From Accumulibacter sp. (GTDB lineage: Bacteria > Pseudomonadota > Gammaproteobacteria > Burkholderiales > Rhodocyclaceae), in contig JAFLDO010000015.1 of NCBI GenBank assembly GCA_017302455.1, forward strand, positions 1 to 64,000: DNA of 64,000 nt. Reading direction: 5' to 3'. Positions 2,611 to 55,700 of this stretch are shown here, piece after piece. Each line of letters begins with the position of its first letter. Positions within the stretch are counted from its first letter, which is position 1. The position numbers and the translations under genes were made by a program. Under the pieces are notes generated by a model, which ran no database searches, had not been told where the DNA came from, and saw only the letters and a list, made by a program, of their open reading frames with translations.

Positions 2611-3270
2611 CGGCTACCTCCATGGTCCATGTACGGCAGCGATTCGTCCGCTGGGTCGACGAATGGCCTCCATCGCATGCACATCGGTCGCGCCTCATCC
2701 ACCGAAAACAGTCGCCGCCTTCCAGCAGGTCGACGACCGAATTCCCAGCCCCCCCACTATAGACCAGCTTGTGCCGCGATCACGCAGATCGGGCAGAGAT
2801 TGTAAAGAAGTCATTATAGTTCTGTGATGACCGGAACCAGGCAGGCGCCGCTAGATCGGCTTGCTGGCGCGGGTGGGGGCCTTGCGCTCGGCCTTCTTCT
2901 TCAGGCCGAGGGACGGATGTCCCGCGTCGAAAATCGTAGCGCCTGGCTTGAAATGCTGTCAAGGCGCCGCTTGCTGGCGGCCGCAAACAAGCCATTCGCT
3001 CGACCAGGGAGCGTAGTGCGCGTGTCGTGTTGGCAACACGACGGCTCGTGATGGCAATTTGTCGCGCCGTGATCGAATCACGACACGTCGTGGAAGGAAT
3101 TTGCTTCACCGGGCTGCCATCACGACCTGTCGTGATGGCAGCACGCGACGGCGTGTTGCCAATTTGTCGTGCCGTGATCGAATCACGAGGCATCGTGCCA
3201 GGATTTTGTCGCCGGGTGATGGCGGCACGACGCGCGCACGCCCTTGGCCAAGGCGGTGAACACGCGACCC
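2611..3270. other. 660-bp intergenic region without a convincing gene
   Basis: The region lies between the 5' end of the PAS-GGDEF gene and the 3' end of the MmeI-like gene. No open frame shows recognisable similarity or good codon structure. The right third (3024-3235) holds the palindrome cluster described separately. The part next to 2610 presumably carries the promoter of the PAS gene, but no clear -35/-10 pair was identified. Confidence 0.6.
3024..3235. repeat. Cluster of palindromes with a degenerate 105-bp direct repeat
   Basis: Four near-perfect palindromes occur in about 165 bp: 3024-3042 (9-bp arms, 1-nt spacer), 3068-3082 (CGTGAT/ATCACG around CGA), 3115-3140 (12-bp arms TGCCATCACGAC / GTCGTGATGGCA, 2-nt spacer) and 3173-3187 (identical to 3068-3082). 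The stretch at 3056-3092 recurs with a few changes at 3161-3197, giving a 105-bp period, and a weaker third copy seems to begin near 3212. It resembles REP/BIME-type intergenic palindromes and is not CRISPR. Confidence 0.65.
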
Positions 3271-6200
3271 TCAGCCGGCGGCGGCCGCGCGTTGCAGGTT
3301 CAGCGCCAGCAGCCGGCGCAGGATTTCTTCGTCGGGCATCGCCGGGGTGTAGTCGCTCCAGCCATACGCGGCGGCGACGGCGTGGTCGAGTTCCTGATGC
3401 GCGAGCGCGAGCCAGGCGGGACGGGCATTGTAGAGGTTGGTGAGGGTGCGTTTCTTCAGATCGGCGGCGTGGCCGGACCTGGCCACCGGACGCTTCGGGA
3501 AGCCGGCTTTCTCTTCTTCGGGGGTAATCACCCAATCGACCCATTCGGCGGGGTTGAGCCAGTTTTCGCGCAGTTCGTCGAGGCGCCGCGCGGCTGATCC
3601 GATTCGCTCGGCGAGCGGACCAGTCGGCGCAGTCTGGGCCGTGTCGCGGGGGGTCAGGTGCTCGGGGAAAGGGAAGGTTTCGAACGTGGTCCTGGAGGTA
3701 TAGCGCGGGCGATCCTCAAGGCTCGTCCCCATGCGAAGCGCCCACAACGCGTGAAAGCGCGATTGCAGGATGCCAAAGGTCGCATCGTCCGGGCGCGCTA
3801 CGACGACAAGATTCTTGTCCGCCACCACCGCCGCCGGCAGCCAGACGAAAACGCGGTGCTTGGCGACTTCCGGTGTCGCGATGAAGCGAGGCAGTCTTGC
3901 AACTTCCCGTTTCATGTCTGCCGCTGATCGCTTGAACAACCAGAATTTTTCGCGAATACTCCTTTCGGCATTAGTGTCGCGCTCCGGCTTGACAAGCGTC
4001 AAGACATGAACGAACGGCGTTTCAAACAACATGGCGGCGGTCTGAGAGTATTCCGCGAAATCGACGATCCACTTGTCTCCCGGGCGCTGCGTGACATCCA
4101 TACCGTTGCGCCAAGGGCGAACCACGTCCGCATTTGGCCGGCCGTTCGGATTTGGCAAACTTAGCCACTGGCGTGCCAGCGCGCCGGGAACGTCGAAGGC
4201 TCCGCCCTTGGTGATTCCCTGGAAAGCGGCGCAAGCGTTCTCCGCCAAGGCCTTGGCCTGCGTCAGATCAAGCCCCGCGCCTGCCGTCAGATCGGCGTGA
4301 ATGGCGGCAACCTCGGCGTCGTCCAGCCGAGCGCTGCCGTCGATGCCCGAACCTCTCCCGAAACCCAGCAGCGACACCCGCACCGCCGCCCCTTCATTGA
4401 CCCACGCTTCATCGCTCCAGGCTTCGAAGATGCGCGTCGTGTCGACGATGCGATCGAGCACCTTGCGGTTGGCCCCGCCGCGAATCGAGTTGGTGGCGAC
4501 CAGCCCTGCCCGCTCGCACAAGCCGGCCTCGATCTGCGCGCGGCTTTTCTCGAACCAGTAAGTCACCAGGTCGGCGCCGCCGGGAACGCGGCCTGCGTAG
4601 CGCTTGCGCAGGCGTTCGACGTAGTCGGCACCGAGTTCGCCGCGCATCATCTTGTCGCCGAGAAACGGCGGATTGCCGACGATCACATCGGCCTTCGGCC
4701 ACACCGCTTCGCTGCCGTCGGCGTCGAGCAGCGCGTCGCGGTGCTCGATATGGTCGAGCGGCGCCAGGATCGGGTTGCGGCGGAAGTCGTAGCCGTTCTT
4801 CAGCATCCACTGTATTTCGCCGACCCACACCGTCACCCGCGCCAGTTCGGCGGCGTAGGCGTTGATCTCGATGCCGAGCACGTTGGCCGGGCTGCTTTCG
4901 ATGGTGAGTTGCCGTTGCAGGCCGAGCGCTTCGGCGTCGAGGTTGGCGCGGTGCTCGAGTGAGCACGGTCAGCTCCCGTGATGGGAAATCGCTCAACTTT
5001 GGTCAAGCAAGTTGATGGCTTTGTCGATAACTCCATGATTTCTTGAATAATCACGATAACTGATGGAGTGCTCGAAGTGCCATCACGGTGTGATCAGGAC
5101 TTGGTCAACAAGAGTGATGTGTTGTAATGGTCTGACTTTGTTTGGTTTTTCTTGTTACCCTGTCATAAATAATCACGAGCGTGATGGGCTCGATGACTCG
5201 GAGACGGGTCAAGGGCAGGCTGCGGCACTATGCAGCCTGGCGAAGCACCCCCTTGACGCGGCGGAGAGTCGATACGCTCGATCATGGCTGTTGGTGCGGC
5301 ATTTCGCGCCAACAGCCATGATGACTGGCTGCGGTTTCTCAGCCAATCATTCGCTAAGCCATCAAGTTCTGTGAACATTGAAACATCAAAAACGTTGGCG
5401 GTACACACTCGAGGTCCTTGAGCGCGCGCAGGCTGAGGTACAGGAAGTTGCCCGAGCCACAGGCGGGGTCAAGGACGCGGAAGCTTTTCAGGCGCTCGAT
5501 GTAACCGAGGAACAGCGCCTGGGCTTCCTTCCAGGCGCTCTGCGAGCCTTTGCCGCCCGCGTGATATTTGGCGACCAGCGGGCCGATGCGCGCGCGGGCT
5601 TGCGCCCATTCGCGCGCCAGCGGTTCGACGATGACCGGATTGACGAGCTTCATGATCGTCCCCGGGTCGGTGTAGTTGGCGCCGAGCGGGGCGCGGATCT
5701 TCGGGTCGAGGCCGCGTTCGAAGAGCGTGCCGAGAATCGACGGCTCGATGGCGCTCCAGTCCATCTTGCTGGCGGCGTGCAGCGCGGCGACCTCGCCGGG
5801 CGTCAGTTCGATCAGGTCGACATGGGCAAAGAGGCCGCCGTTGAACCAGGCGATGTCTTCGAGCAGGAAGTCGCCGCCGTTCTGCATGGCCTGGAAGAGT
5901 TCACCGAGCGCGGCGCCGAGCTTCACCGTGTCGGCGCCGCGCTTGGCCATGACGCGCTCGAAAAGGTGCTTGGGCAGCAGTTCGATGTCTTCGGCAAACA
6001 TGCAGAACAGGCACTGGATCAGGAAGTGCGCGACCTTCTGCGGATCGTGGCCACGGCTGGTCATCGATTGGGCGATGTCGGCGAAGCGGCCGGCGGCGTC
6101 GGCGGTGATCTCGCGCACGGTGCGGCCCGGACGGAAGCTTTCGGGGTCGGTGAACAGCCGGCGCAGCTTTTGCAGGTTGTCGGGCGTGCCGATGTCTTCG

Positions 6201-6571
6201 AGGCGGATGGTGTGCGTCTCGGACGGCGTGCCGGTGAAATGGGTGTGGATCTGCGTCACGTCGCGGTTGCTGACGACGAGCAGCGGCGGGTTGTCGAGGG
6301 CCAGCGCGTAGGTCATCAGTTGCTTGAGGGCGCCGCCGAGGTCACCGCCCGGACCCTTGTTCTCCCAGCCGAAATGCCCGCGCTTCCAGACATCCGCCCA
6401 GCCATGCCCGGCGCCGGTGCGCGTCGCGCCGCGTTCGAAACAATAGTTGTCCGAATCGTTCGGGGCGTCGACGCCGAGCAGCGCGCACAGGTCGAGGAAG
6501 AAGGCCTGCGAGCCGGCGCGCTCGGAGAGTGGGTTGTCGCGCCATCTGGCGATGAACTGGCTGGGGGTCAT
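3271..6571 (-). pseudogene. MmeI-like fused restriction endonuclease/adenine methyltransferase, split by an insertion
   Basis: Translation starts at ATG 6571 (MTPSQFIARWRDNP). Without the 448-bp insertion and one CTCGAG copy the gene is a single 948-codon frame, close to MmeI (919 residues). The N-terminal nuclease domain has D60-x9-E70-x-K72 in the same D-x9-ExK spacing as MmeI. Helical and methyltransferase domains follow, with motif I DPACGSGNF near residue 370 and motif IV NPPF at about 482-485, then target-recognition and C-terminal regions. The insertion falls after residue 388, between motif I and LGIEINAYAAEL. The N-terminal piece then picks up a few foreign residues and stops at 5354; the C-terminal piece has no native start. 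Such enzymes need both activities in one chain, so the system is very probably dead. All catalytic motifs remain, so decay is recent. Confidence 0.9.
4960..5407. mobile_element. 448-bp non-autonomous insertion (MITE-like) in the MmeI-like gene
   Basis: The element is bounded by CTCGAG at 4954-4959 and 5408-5413. Removing it with one copy restores the host frame exactly (LKDLE joined to HRANL). The ends TGAGCACGGTCA and, read inward from the right, TGTGTACCGCCA match at 8 of 12 positions, a weak terminal inverted repeat. It has no credible protein gene and is visibly AT-richer than its surroundings, especially 5020-5170. It holds strong nested hairpins: arms 5208-5215/5250-5257 enclosing 5216-5223/5232-5239, and a perfect 14-bp stem 5281-5294/5309-5322. 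The family is not recognised. A MITE or deleted insertion sequence is most likely. Confidence 0.75.
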
Positions 6572-6687
6572 GGGCGTGGCGCTGAGCGTTGGCAGAGCGT
6601 GGAAGCATAGCCGATGGGCGACCATGGTTGTTGAAAGTCCGTCGGCCTGTCGGTTAGACTTCGGCCAATCATTTGGAGTGGCCAACC

Positions 6688-6897
6688 ATGAACACGATGG
6701 AACGAATTGTCGAGGAAGTGCGGACGCTGCCTGAGACGGATGCGCGAGAAGTGCTGGATTTTGTTGGCTACCTCAAGTCCAGGCGCGCACAGACCATGGC
6801 GGCAACTGCGGACATGAGCGAATTCGATCAGTTCGGTGCGGTGTTCGATGGCAAGTTCAACCGTGATGAGTGCTATGACCGCGAAGTGCTTCGCTGA
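6688..6897 (+). CDS. VapB/DUF2281-like antitoxin
   Basis: This 69-residue protein starts at ATG 6688, which has GGAG about 10 nt upstream; an ATG at 6673 is less likely. The N-terminal helix-rich part (MERIVEEVRTLPETDAREVL) and the FNRDECYDREVLR tail resemble small DUF2281-type antitoxins that pair with PIN toxins. It overlaps the toxin by 23 nt, the usual arrangement for a coupled antitoxin-first pair. It should bind and inhibit the downstream PIN protein and repress the shared promoter. The DNA-binding fold is not obvious from sequence alone. Confidence 0.75.
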   Translation: MNTMERIVEEVRTLPETDAREVLDFVGYLKSRRAQTMAATADMSEFDQFGAVFDGKFNRDECYDREVLR

Positions 6898-7282
6898 CAC
6901 GAACGTCGTCCTGTATACCATTGGGAAGGACAGCCGCAAGGCGGAGATTGCGCGCGGCATCCTGGCGGCGCGTCCGCTGGTCAGCGCGCAGGTCATCAAT
7001 GAGGCCATCAATGTCTGCCTGCGGAAGCTCGATTTTGGTCGGACGAAGGCGTACGCCTTCGCAGATAGTGTGATGCGGCTTACCGATGTGCTGCCCGTCG
7101 ATGAAACGACCATCCGCAAGAGCGCAGAGCTGGCCATCCGCTACCAGCTTGCCAATTGGGATGCACTGATCGTGGCAGCAGCCGTGCTCGCCGGCTGCGA
7201 TACGCTCTATTCCGAGGACCTGCAGAATGGACAGGTGCTGGCAGACCAGCTGTCTGTCGTCAATCCGTTCGTCACCGCATGA
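6875..7282 (+). CDS. VapC-like PIN-domain ribonuclease toxin
   Basis: This 135-residue protein starts at ATG 6875 (MTAKCFADTNVVLY), inside the antitoxin gene. The PIN acidic residues are visible: Asp in FADTNV, Glu in VINEAIN, Asp in NWDALIV and Asp in LYSEDLQ. They would form the Mg-binding site for cleavage of RNA, often initiator tRNA or rRNA in this family. Length and motifs are complete, so the toxin looks functional. The pair sits beside the broken MmeI-like gene and may be what remains active in this small defence patch. Confidence 0.85.
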   Translation: MTAKCFADTNVVLYTIGKDSRKAEIARGILAARPLVSAQVINEAINVCLRKLDFGRTKAYAFADSVMRLTDVLPVDETTIRKSAELAIRYQLANWDALIVAAAVLAGCDTLYSEDLQNGQVLADQLSVVNPFVTA

Positions 7283-52742: not shown

Positions 52743-55700
52743 CTAGCACTTACCCGAGGCAGCACAGGCGCTGACTCGCTGCATGTTTTCCTCCACCCGC
52801 TCGCTGAAGCCGTTGAGCATCTCCTGCAGGTCGGTCAGGCGAACCAGAACGACCTCGCCCGGCAGGCAACTGCTCGAGCCACTGGCGACCACCTTCATTT
52901 CGGCGAAGGCGCCTTCCCCGGCAGGCAGCTTCGAGAACCCGATCAGATCACCAGTGTTCAGGAAGCACTCTACGCCCGCGGACGCCTGCGCCACGTTGAG
53001 CGGTTGCGCAGTCTGGAACAGGTAGATTCGCGCATAGCCGGAGGCCAGCACGTCGGCAAGCACCAGGGGACGACCATTCTGATGCATGGCGACACTGAGG
53101 CGCACCTGTTTGCGCACTTGCTGGCGGACTTCTTCGGGAATCTGTATGGGCACCGCACTGCCCACCGCCTCCTGGACCCGTGACGATGCCGCTTGCACAT
53201 CCACCCCTGCCAATTGATCCTTGAGCGCCGCGTTGCCCTGAACGCTGGTCTTCACGTGCTGCCGCACCGTCGTCATCTGGCTGCGCAGCGTCGCCGCTTC
53301 AGGCGCATCATAGACCGGGGACGCCCCGTAAGGGGTCGAATAAGCGTAACCCTCTTCAAACGCCGACGAGATCTGCATATCCCCCATCAAGGCCAGCGGA
53401 TCGTTGTAGCTCGTGACCGGCGAAGCAAAGGCCACCCAGGTCGCCGCTGCCACCACCACCGGCACCGCGAAGCGCGCGTAATGACCGCGGTAGTCATCCG
53501 GCACGAAGCGCGACGGGCGGTACTGGGCCACCGGCGCACCGTGGATGTAGACCACGTCGTACCGACGAACCACGGGCCTCGGTTCATACTCCGGCCGGCC
53601 GTTCCACCAGCGTGCGTAACGCGTCCGCTCGATCATTCGGCGCTCACGGCCATCCTGATCACGGAAGGAAGTGAAGCGATCCTGAAAAACCGGTCTGCCA
53701 TCGGGCAGTACCGCCGCTCGCAGGCCATTACGGTGGGTGACGAAGCTCGTCCCACTCCCCACGGAACGACGTTCGAAATCACGCCCCTGGGTCACCAGAC
53801 GGCCATCCGCATAGACACGGGTCGTTGTCCCGTCGCGCGTATCGTCGGTCTGCTTGAAACCGGTCACGCGCTTCGTCCCGTCGGGCAACTGCTGCTGCGA
53901 GACCACGATCTGCGAACCGTCGGCGTTCTTCTGACGAATGTCGAAGCTGTTGCGATTGCCGTGCGGCACCACGCTGGTCGCCGCATCGACAACGACCGCT
54001 TGCGCTGGTGTCGACCGGCGTCCATCCGGGGCGGGCCGACGGACATCAGACGACTGCTGAGCTTGCGCGGGTAGCGAAGCCTGCCCTGGCTGGCCCGCTG
54101 GCCGAGTGACAGCAGGTGCTTCGGCTAGGCCCGGCGCGCTCACGGGCGCGGTCGCGGGCGCTTGACCCGGCGCGACTGGCTCACGCGGCCGGTGTCCATC
54201 CGACGGCGCCAATTGAGCTTGTGCCGCCGCCGGTGCGGGCTGGACCGACGGCCCGAGCACAGCGGATGCTGGCGGTTTTCCCGGCACGGCCGCGGTCGCT
54301 GGCGTCTGCAACACGAGGCCGGACTGGCCTGGCCGGCGTCCATCCGGCGGTGGCCCCGGCACCTGCGCGGTCACGGGAGGCTGCACGGGCTGGACGGGTG
54401 GCCGGATTGCAGCGGGTGCCGGCGCTTGGCCCGGCGCGGTCGCGGGCGCTTGACCGAGCGCGACTGCCTCCCGTGGCCGGCGTCCATCCGGCGGCGGCGA
54501 TTGAACTTGCGCCGCAGGCGGCGCCGGGACCGGCTGGGCCAAGGGCCGGACCGCTGCGGATCCTGGCGGCTGGCCCGGTGCAGTCGCGGGTGCTGGCGTC
54601 TGCACTACCACGACTGATTGGCTGGGCCGGCGTCCATCCGGCGTTGGCGGCTGCCCCTGCGCGGTCATGGGAGGCTGCACTGGCTGAGCCGCTGGGCGAA
54701 TCACAGGCGGGGCTTGCGCCTGGCCCGGCGCCGTCGCGGACGCTGGCGTCTGCACCACCGGGCCTGGCTGGCCGGAACGGGCGCCATCCCGCGGCGGCGC
54801 TTGCACTTGCGCCACCGCAGAAGCTTGTGCCGGCAAGACCGGCGCCGGTGCCCGGATCGCGGTCGGTGCCTGGCCTTGGCTGGACATGGTCGTGGGCGCC
54901 TGGCCAACCGGGCCCGGCTGCCCGGGTCGGCGACCATCAGGCGGCGGCAGACCTAGCCCGGCACCGGCAACTTGAGGCTGCTGACCAGGTTGACGAATCA
55001 CACCGGGGGACTGCCCCAACGGAGCTTGCGGGACCGCTTGAAGTGCCCGCGGTGGCTCTTGCTGCAGAGGCTGCTGCCTGGCGCGTTGCTGCTCCTGTTG
55101 CTGCGCCTGCTGTTGCGCACGCTGCTGCTCTTGCTGTCGCGCCTGCTCCCTGGCGCGCTGCTGCTCGTGTTGCTGCGCCTGCTGTTGGGCGCGCTGCTGC
55201 TCCTGCTGTTGCGCCTGCTCCCTGGCGCGCTGCTGCTCCTGTTGCTGCGCCTGCTGTTGGGCACGCTGCTGCTCCTGCTGTTGCGCCTGCTGCCTGGCGC
55301 GCTGCTGCTCCAGTTGCTGCGCCTGCTGTTGCGCACGCTGCTGCTCCTGCTGTTGCGCCTGTTGCCTGGCGCGCTGCTGTTCCTGTTGCTGCGCCTGCTG
55401 TTGCGCACGCTGCTGCTCCTGCTGTTGCGCCTGTTGCCTGGCGCGCTGCTGTTCCTGTTGCTGCGCCTGCTGTTGCGCCTGCTGCCTGGCGCGTTGCTGC
55501 TCCAGTTGCTGCGCCTGCTGTTGCGCACGCTGCTGCTCCTGCTGTTGCGCCTGTTGCCTGGCGCGCTGCTGTTCCTGCTGCTGCGCCTGCTGTTGCGCAC
55601 GCTGCTGCTCCTGCTGTTGCGCCTGCTGCCTGGCGCGTTGCTGTTCCTGTTGCTGCGCCTGCTGCTCCTGCTCCCGCGATGGTGGCGAAGGCCTCCTCCC

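Follow-up and report, generated by a model that had tools for sequence, protein, structure and literature searches.

We found that the restriction-modification gene in the window, i.e., the whole stretch of 64,000 nucleotides that was analysed, is split by a 448-bp insert that is very probably a MITE-like non-autonomous transposon, moved in trans by the proteins of another element, and that this insertion broke the MmeI-like gene in an effectively one-way manner. About one third of the insert is made up of a structured module, designated R1, that the first, sequence-only reading of this DNA had overlooked. Defence genes are often broken by mobile elements, and a knockout of this kind is ordinary in itself; what matters more is that several unrelated transposons carry the same folded, covarying module at fixed internal places. 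The features are listed in Table 1, in which G000 is the genome of the window and the other G numbers denote other genomes.

Table 1. Features of the insert, the split gene, the three-gene transposon, and the settings of module R1
Feature	Position or setting	Strand	Basis
Left copy of 6-bp target duplication CTCGAG	4954..4959		Sequence; single CTCGAG in the G010 orthologue
Right copy of 6-bp target duplication CTCGAG	5408..5413		Sequence
448-bp MITE-like element	4960..5407	+	Own-genome copy; G025 copy at other site; empty sites
Left tip TGAGCACGGTCA	4960..4971	+	Same tip in relatives and in three-gene transposon
Right tip TGTGTACCGCCA	5396..5407	-	8/12 identical to left tip
Subterminal GGTCA-n-TGATG repeats, two	4967..5018 (4967-4984, 5001-5018)	+	Same arrangement at ends of three-gene transposon
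Similar GGTCA-n-TGATG repeats	5103-5120; 5359-5376	+; -	Pattern in the element
Structured module R1, four helices, probably RNA	5191..5335	+	cmsearch 150.3 bits; covariation; fold z -6.0
MmeI-like gene, N-terminal part	5414..6571	-	D-x9-ENK, helicase-spacer domain, DPACGSGNF; translation, Pfam, PADLOC
MmeI-like gene, C-terminal part	3271..4953	-	NPPF, target recognition domain; translation, Pfam, PADLOC
Three-gene transposon, 6-bp duplications	G026 CTCAAG; G000:C6 ACCAGA; G008:C74 GGTGGT		None at G010:C46 and G026:C8
ParB-IstA-IstB element	R1 89-197 nt beyond istB, convergent		5 loci
Other IS21 type	R1 between istB and istA, antisense		2 loci; beside related IstB, 1
IS110-type transposase	R1 349-382 nt beyond, convergent		2 loci
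ISL3 transposase	R1 before, same strand		8 loci (3 by Pfam, 5 by nucleotide homology)
MITE B			3 loci; further copies in G026
MITE C, about 200-240 bp			9 loci
No transposon recognised around R1			11 of 41 loci

By its domains and motifs, the split gene is an MmeI-like type IIG restriction-modification gene that is otherwise intact. Joining the flanks on a single CTCGAG restored the 948-codon frame that the sequence-only reading had stated, which starts with the ATG at 6571 and is free of internal stops, and the three motifs named by that reading (D-x9-ExK, DPACGSGNF, and NPPF, which we take to be motifs of an MmeI-like type IIG enzyme) were all read in the translations, namely D-x9-ENK and DPACGSGNF in the N-terminal half and NPPF in the C-terminal half. 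According to Pfam, the N-terminal part contains MmeI_hel and the start of MmeI_Mtase, and the C-terminal part the rest of MmeI_Mtase together with MmeI_TRD; these three domains scored above the Pfam cut-off and MmeI_C below it, and an N-terminal nuclease domain had no Pfam match at E 0.01. Both halves were matched by PDLC03627, the type IIG model of PADLOC, and NCBIfam returned nothing for either of them at E 0.001. Beside the start of the broken gene (6673-7282) lie a 74-aa and then a 148-aa ORF that, judged by eye, resemble a pair of antitoxin and PIN-domain toxin; just past its stop (3023-3231) are two imperfect 104-bp direct repeats, 73% alike and rich in short palindromes; and elsewhere in the window (54131-55650) there is an extended tandem array that repeats at 12 and 36 bp (39 registers).

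To establish which state of the gene is ancestral, we relied on relatives. The N-terminal part was matched in 9 of the 28 genomes of the genus, with close orthologues in G025 (93%), G010 (91%), and G004 (89%), all of which have uninterrupted frames (1009, 972, and 976 codons, respectively). Because these three orthologues align across the joined junction without gaps (114/117, 113/120, and 109/120 identical bases, respectively), the insert is, by this comparison, the derived state of the gene. Empty sites, which the earlier reading had proposed looking for in related strains, were thus found in three relatives, whose orthologues lack the 448 bp and show solely the uninterrupted state at the insertion point; the junction hexamer is a single CTCGAG in G010 and TTCGAG in G025 and G004. 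The CTCGAG copies reported on both sides of the 448 bp are indeed present, and on their own prove nothing, because chance alone makes such a hexamer frequent (29 in the window versus 32.1 expected). The insertion nevertheless goes beyond chance, because the 448 bp are bounded by transposon ends and the three orthologues are uninterrupted exactly there.

Insert and duplication together add 454 bp, which is not divisible by three and shifts the frame, such that the frame of the N-terminal part continues into the insert and stops at 5354. The insertion point falls within the methyltransferase domain, which is thereby divided in two. Given the shifted frame and the split domain, the single-chain enzyme has most likely lost its function and would neither methylate nor cut; in methylome predictions for this genome, the gene should not be counted as active. 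Comparison with two of the three orthologues, G004 and G010 (G025 was left out), gave dN/dS values of 0.118 and 0.138, respectively, for codons 1-559 of the joined frame, and of 0.165 and 0.307 for the codons after 559. These low values and the lack of any other stop in the joined frame suggest that the break is recent.

The insert itself displays most traits of a MITE. It contains no transposase gene and no recombinase gene was seen in it; the only ORFs overlapping it are two small ones (103 and 81 aa) without a Pfam match at E 0.01, in agreement with the earlier description of a non-autonomous element devoid of coding capacity. Its terminal inverted repeats, rightly called weak in that description, extend over 18 nt at 78% identity if the palindromic duplication is included and amount to 8/12 in the element proper. 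Its ends are shared with an autonomous element (see below), and the 6-bp duplication is supported by the window copy and the single-copy empty site in G010; it was not seen at the three other copies with both ends, i.e., it is visible at one of four. Folded as DNA, the element taken as a whole did better than its shuffled versions (z -8.5; 0 of 100 shuffles as good). Many copies per genome, a trait that is common for MITEs and not strictly defining, was not observed, and the one full-length copy in G000 counts against a MITE because it is few for such an element.

When the element was searched for elsewhere, as had been suggested, we detected the element or its ends in 7 of the 28 genus genomes (G000, G025, G007, G010, G005, G001, and G008), with related copies at other sites. 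G025 carries a full-length element, 84% identical, at another site; G007 matches at 87% over the left 294 bp and has a tip elsewhere; G010 and G005 hold diverged relatives with both ends; and G001 and G008 hold right-end pieces. The left 241 bp was matched in 2 of 297 genomes of the family, a sample that did not include other genus copies known to exist. A single plasmid record matched (72.5% over 80 bases, in the module part), and phages gave no match to the element. A strict two-repeat pattern proved too strict as a detector, finding 1 of 399 genomes, our own. Of 199 family genomes, 87 contain the short tip TGAGCACGGTCANC, which is seemingly far more frequent than its reversed pattern. In G005, an IS66-type insertion, bordered by an 8-9-bp repeat, sits within one relative of the element (L036, 6549-8506); the IS66 transposase was accordingly rejected as the autonomous form.

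A more plausible parent emerged from the left tip, whose pattern was found in 16 stretches of the GTDB collection. By reading, two of these are likely chance matches in genes (L124 and L128), two are relatives of the element (L130 and L137), and several of the remaining 12 lead into the same coding start. The complete transposon in G026 spans 3,861 bp and has three genes: the first (206 aa) is zinc-ribbon-like by eye and without a Pfam match at E 0.1; the second (491 aa) encodes an rve-type DDE protein that scored 104.5 bits with the NCBIfam IS481 model, below its cut-off of 224; and the third (281 aa) encodes an AAA ATPase (AAA_22). In PDB, the transposase weakly resembles retroviral integrases (best E 1e-4), and the ATPase had no match at E 0.01. 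By these searches, the three-gene transposon is assigned to no named family, its DDE protein being nearest IS481 in NCBIfam. Among the five transposon copies whose two ends fall within a single stretch, three are flanked by 6-bp duplications. The copy in our own genome (G000:C6:596-4458) is 87% identical to that of G026 (DDE protein, 90%), its frames are open (217, 491, and 344 aa, the last counted from a start that lies further upstream than that of the 281-aa frame in G026), and it is likely the helper transposon. Between the short element and the G026 transposon, 38/62 bases of the left end, 32/62 of the right end, and 21/25 of the left tip are identical, and the interiors are unrelated. 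Of 200,000 placements drawn at random in the window, 4 did as well over the first 25 bases and 2 over the last 45, about 3 being what the element's own position would give. Two other candidate parents were rejected: paired GGTCA-TGATG ends were not seen in 30 IstB loci (1.5-kb flanks, some left ends missing), which argues against IS21 (IstB-profile matches, many of them weak, occur in 28 of 28 genus genomes), and ten stretches of a second DDE group (32-39% identical) showed no convincing end.

Taken together, the short element was probably moved in trans by the three-gene transposon, whose proteins would have recognised the subterminal GGTCA/TGATG repeats, putative protein-binding sites. Insertion into CTCGAG duplicated 6 bp, shifted the frame, and split the methyltransferase domain; the event is effectively one-way, and regaining the gene would require a rare precise excision. 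The sequence-only reading had instead pictured a reversible, phase-variable insertion, in which the element leaves and returns and thereby switches the restriction-modification enzyme on and off. We consider such switching highly unlikely, even though the gene is otherwise intact, precise excision via the 6-bp direct repeats would leave it just as it was before, and a likely helper resides in the same genome: the absence of a visible recombinase, ends that belong to a DDE transposon, and the single full-length copy in this genome leave the proposal unsupported, and precise loss of DDE-transposon insertions is known to occur at a very low rate. That the 448 bp have long belonged to the gene, or are an intron removed by splicing, for which their strong structure (z -8.5) might speak, is improbable in the extreme in view of the three uninterrupted orthologues, the frame shift caused by 454 added bases, the failure of Rfam covariance models to recognise a group I or II intron core in the element (E 1, over 4700-5700), and an apparent RNA strand of the module that is antisense to the gene. 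A misjoining of two repeats during assembly is conceivable in a 126-contig genome and has an equally negligible probability, given the clean 6-bp duplication, the exact transposon ends, and the counterpart, 84% identical, that occupies a different site in G025.

We then turned to module R1. Folded as RNA, the module reached a z of -6.0, compared with -3.1 for the left 141 bp of the element and -0.7 for bases 5050-5190. An alignment of 23 module copies revealed four helices with 32 pairs, with standard pairs in 96.5% of 736 cells. Two-sided changes affected 12 pairs and 69 cells; shuffling gave 6.6 pairs and 20.1 cells, with none of 500 shuffles as high, and sliding the structure by 1-3 columns left no more than 6 pairs and 11 cells. 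The scoring is biased towards the structure, which was predicted from the very alignment used for it, and the shuffle statistics ignore kinship. Compensatory changes are present in all four helices. Among non-Watson-Crick cells, we counted 28 G-T versus 2 A-C in the 23-copy alignment, and 72 G-T versus 15 A-C and 47 others in a wider model-fitted alignment comprising 48 unique rows of the best 61 of 83 matches (the 22 weakest, mostly second matches on the other strand, were left out). Because one-sided changes are thus mostly G-T rather than A-C, the module appears to be an RNA read on the + strand of the window, antisense to the restriction gene. Rfam offered no credible match to the module, only sub-threshold ones of animal or plant microRNA type, and a search for intrinsic terminators gave one weak site at the module edge (5192-5176, - strand; 0.6 expected by chance), i.e., none beyond chance. 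Nor did the literature (open-licence PMC, judged from listings) yield anything on R1 or on the element.

The R1 model matched 45 of 297 family genomes, in 24 of 68 genera, and, in a class-wide draw with stricter filters (E 1e-5), our own genome and 1 of 320 others. Transposons that are unrelated rarely have more in common than their host; the surroundings of the module, inspected at 41 loci, nonetheless include several transposon types (Table 1), and its orientation to the transposase differs between them. For the ISL3 lineage, 21 loci were retrieved and 19 counted (L235 is a duplicate and L225 lacks the upstream side); in 10 of these 19, including G000:C95 of our own genome (37% protein identity) and G013 (35%), the module lies 0-47 nt before the matched transposase frame, and nine copies of G074 and G128 (38-39%) are without it. 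Homology continues through the module within the ISL3, the IS110-type, and both IS21 lineages; on this evidence, the module is an inherited internal part of those lineages, and the fact that unrelated families also carry it implies capture or exchange. Three G026 copies of MITE B share 270-280 bp at 98.6-99.6%, and one end of MITE B matches the end of the ParB element. Relatives of the 448-bp element differ in this respect: those of the window and G025 carry the module, and those of G005 and G010 seemingly hold remnants only (by eye). An IS66 context was set aside as weak, for it was represented by one locus with an IS66 C-terminus nearby, where unit homology ends about 20-40 nt past the module. 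As separate observations, an IS21-like element of our own genome (L105, 1194-4717; G000:C61) carries an additional ParB-like gene ahead of istA and istB, with R1 beyond istB, and one copy of MITE B (L041, 6296-6576; G026:C1) is flanked by large genes reminiscent, by eye, of a Wadjet-type (MukB-like) operon.

Our tentative reading, in which we place somewhat less than even confidence, is that R1 may be an undescribed structured RNA of ~135 nt that forms a shared functional part of unrelated transposons (ISL3, two IS21 types, IS110-type units, and at least three MITE families) in one bacterial family, passed between them and selected even in gene-less elements. A rather doubtful alternative, which we nonetheless take seriously, is that the module is a small selfish insert like pneumococcal RUP, which hit several IS types independently and is conserved by recent descent only, without being a functional RNA. 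The variable orientation of the module to the transposase would fit such a passenger, as would the account in PMC2229807, where RUP is reported from more than six IS families in pneumococcus. What tells against it are the compensatory changes in all four helices, its constant position ahead of ISL3 transposases, even at 35-37% protein identity, the module and flanks common within each lineage, and the failure to find a duplication or borders of the module itself among the loci that carry it. If R1 is instead the shared RNA, it would serve mobile elements that are otherwise unrelated as a common device for control or processing, and what the transposons gain from it becomes directly testable. 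One conceivable role, unlikely on balance and put forward with low confidence by analogy with a proposal that PMC2229807 presents for NEMIS and ERIC, is that the module might control the processing or stability of transcripts running through the transposon.

Finally, we compared these elements with known systems. Tn5053/Tn402, Tn7, Mu, and IS21 likewise combine a DDE transposase with an AAA protein; the parent transposon differs from them in its 6-bp duplications and its third, zinc-ribbon-like ORF without a Pfam match. MITEs are short, lack a transposase, and have inverted tips, a target duplication, and ends resembling those of an autonomous element that the genome also carries, all of which is found in the 448-bp element; unlike MITEs, it has one full-length copy, and its interior holds a covarying module common to unrelated IS types. 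The element alone adds a member to a known kind, and the shared module sets it apart. For cas genes, PMC10359306 reports knockout by IS or MITE insertion, likewise a case of a mobile element breaking a defence gene, the target here being a type IIG restriction-modification gene instead. IStrons, as outlined in PMC4227781, join one class of structured RNA to different IS families, much as R1 does; R1 differs in that no group I intron and no sign of splicing were found, and in that it lies inside elements and is common to MITEs. As far as the descriptions in PMC2229807 go, NEMIS, ERIC, RUP, and CIR are small mobile repeats with folding transcripts, RUP, like R1, occurring in several IS families; by those descriptions they are whole elements, whereas R1 is an internal part of several elements.
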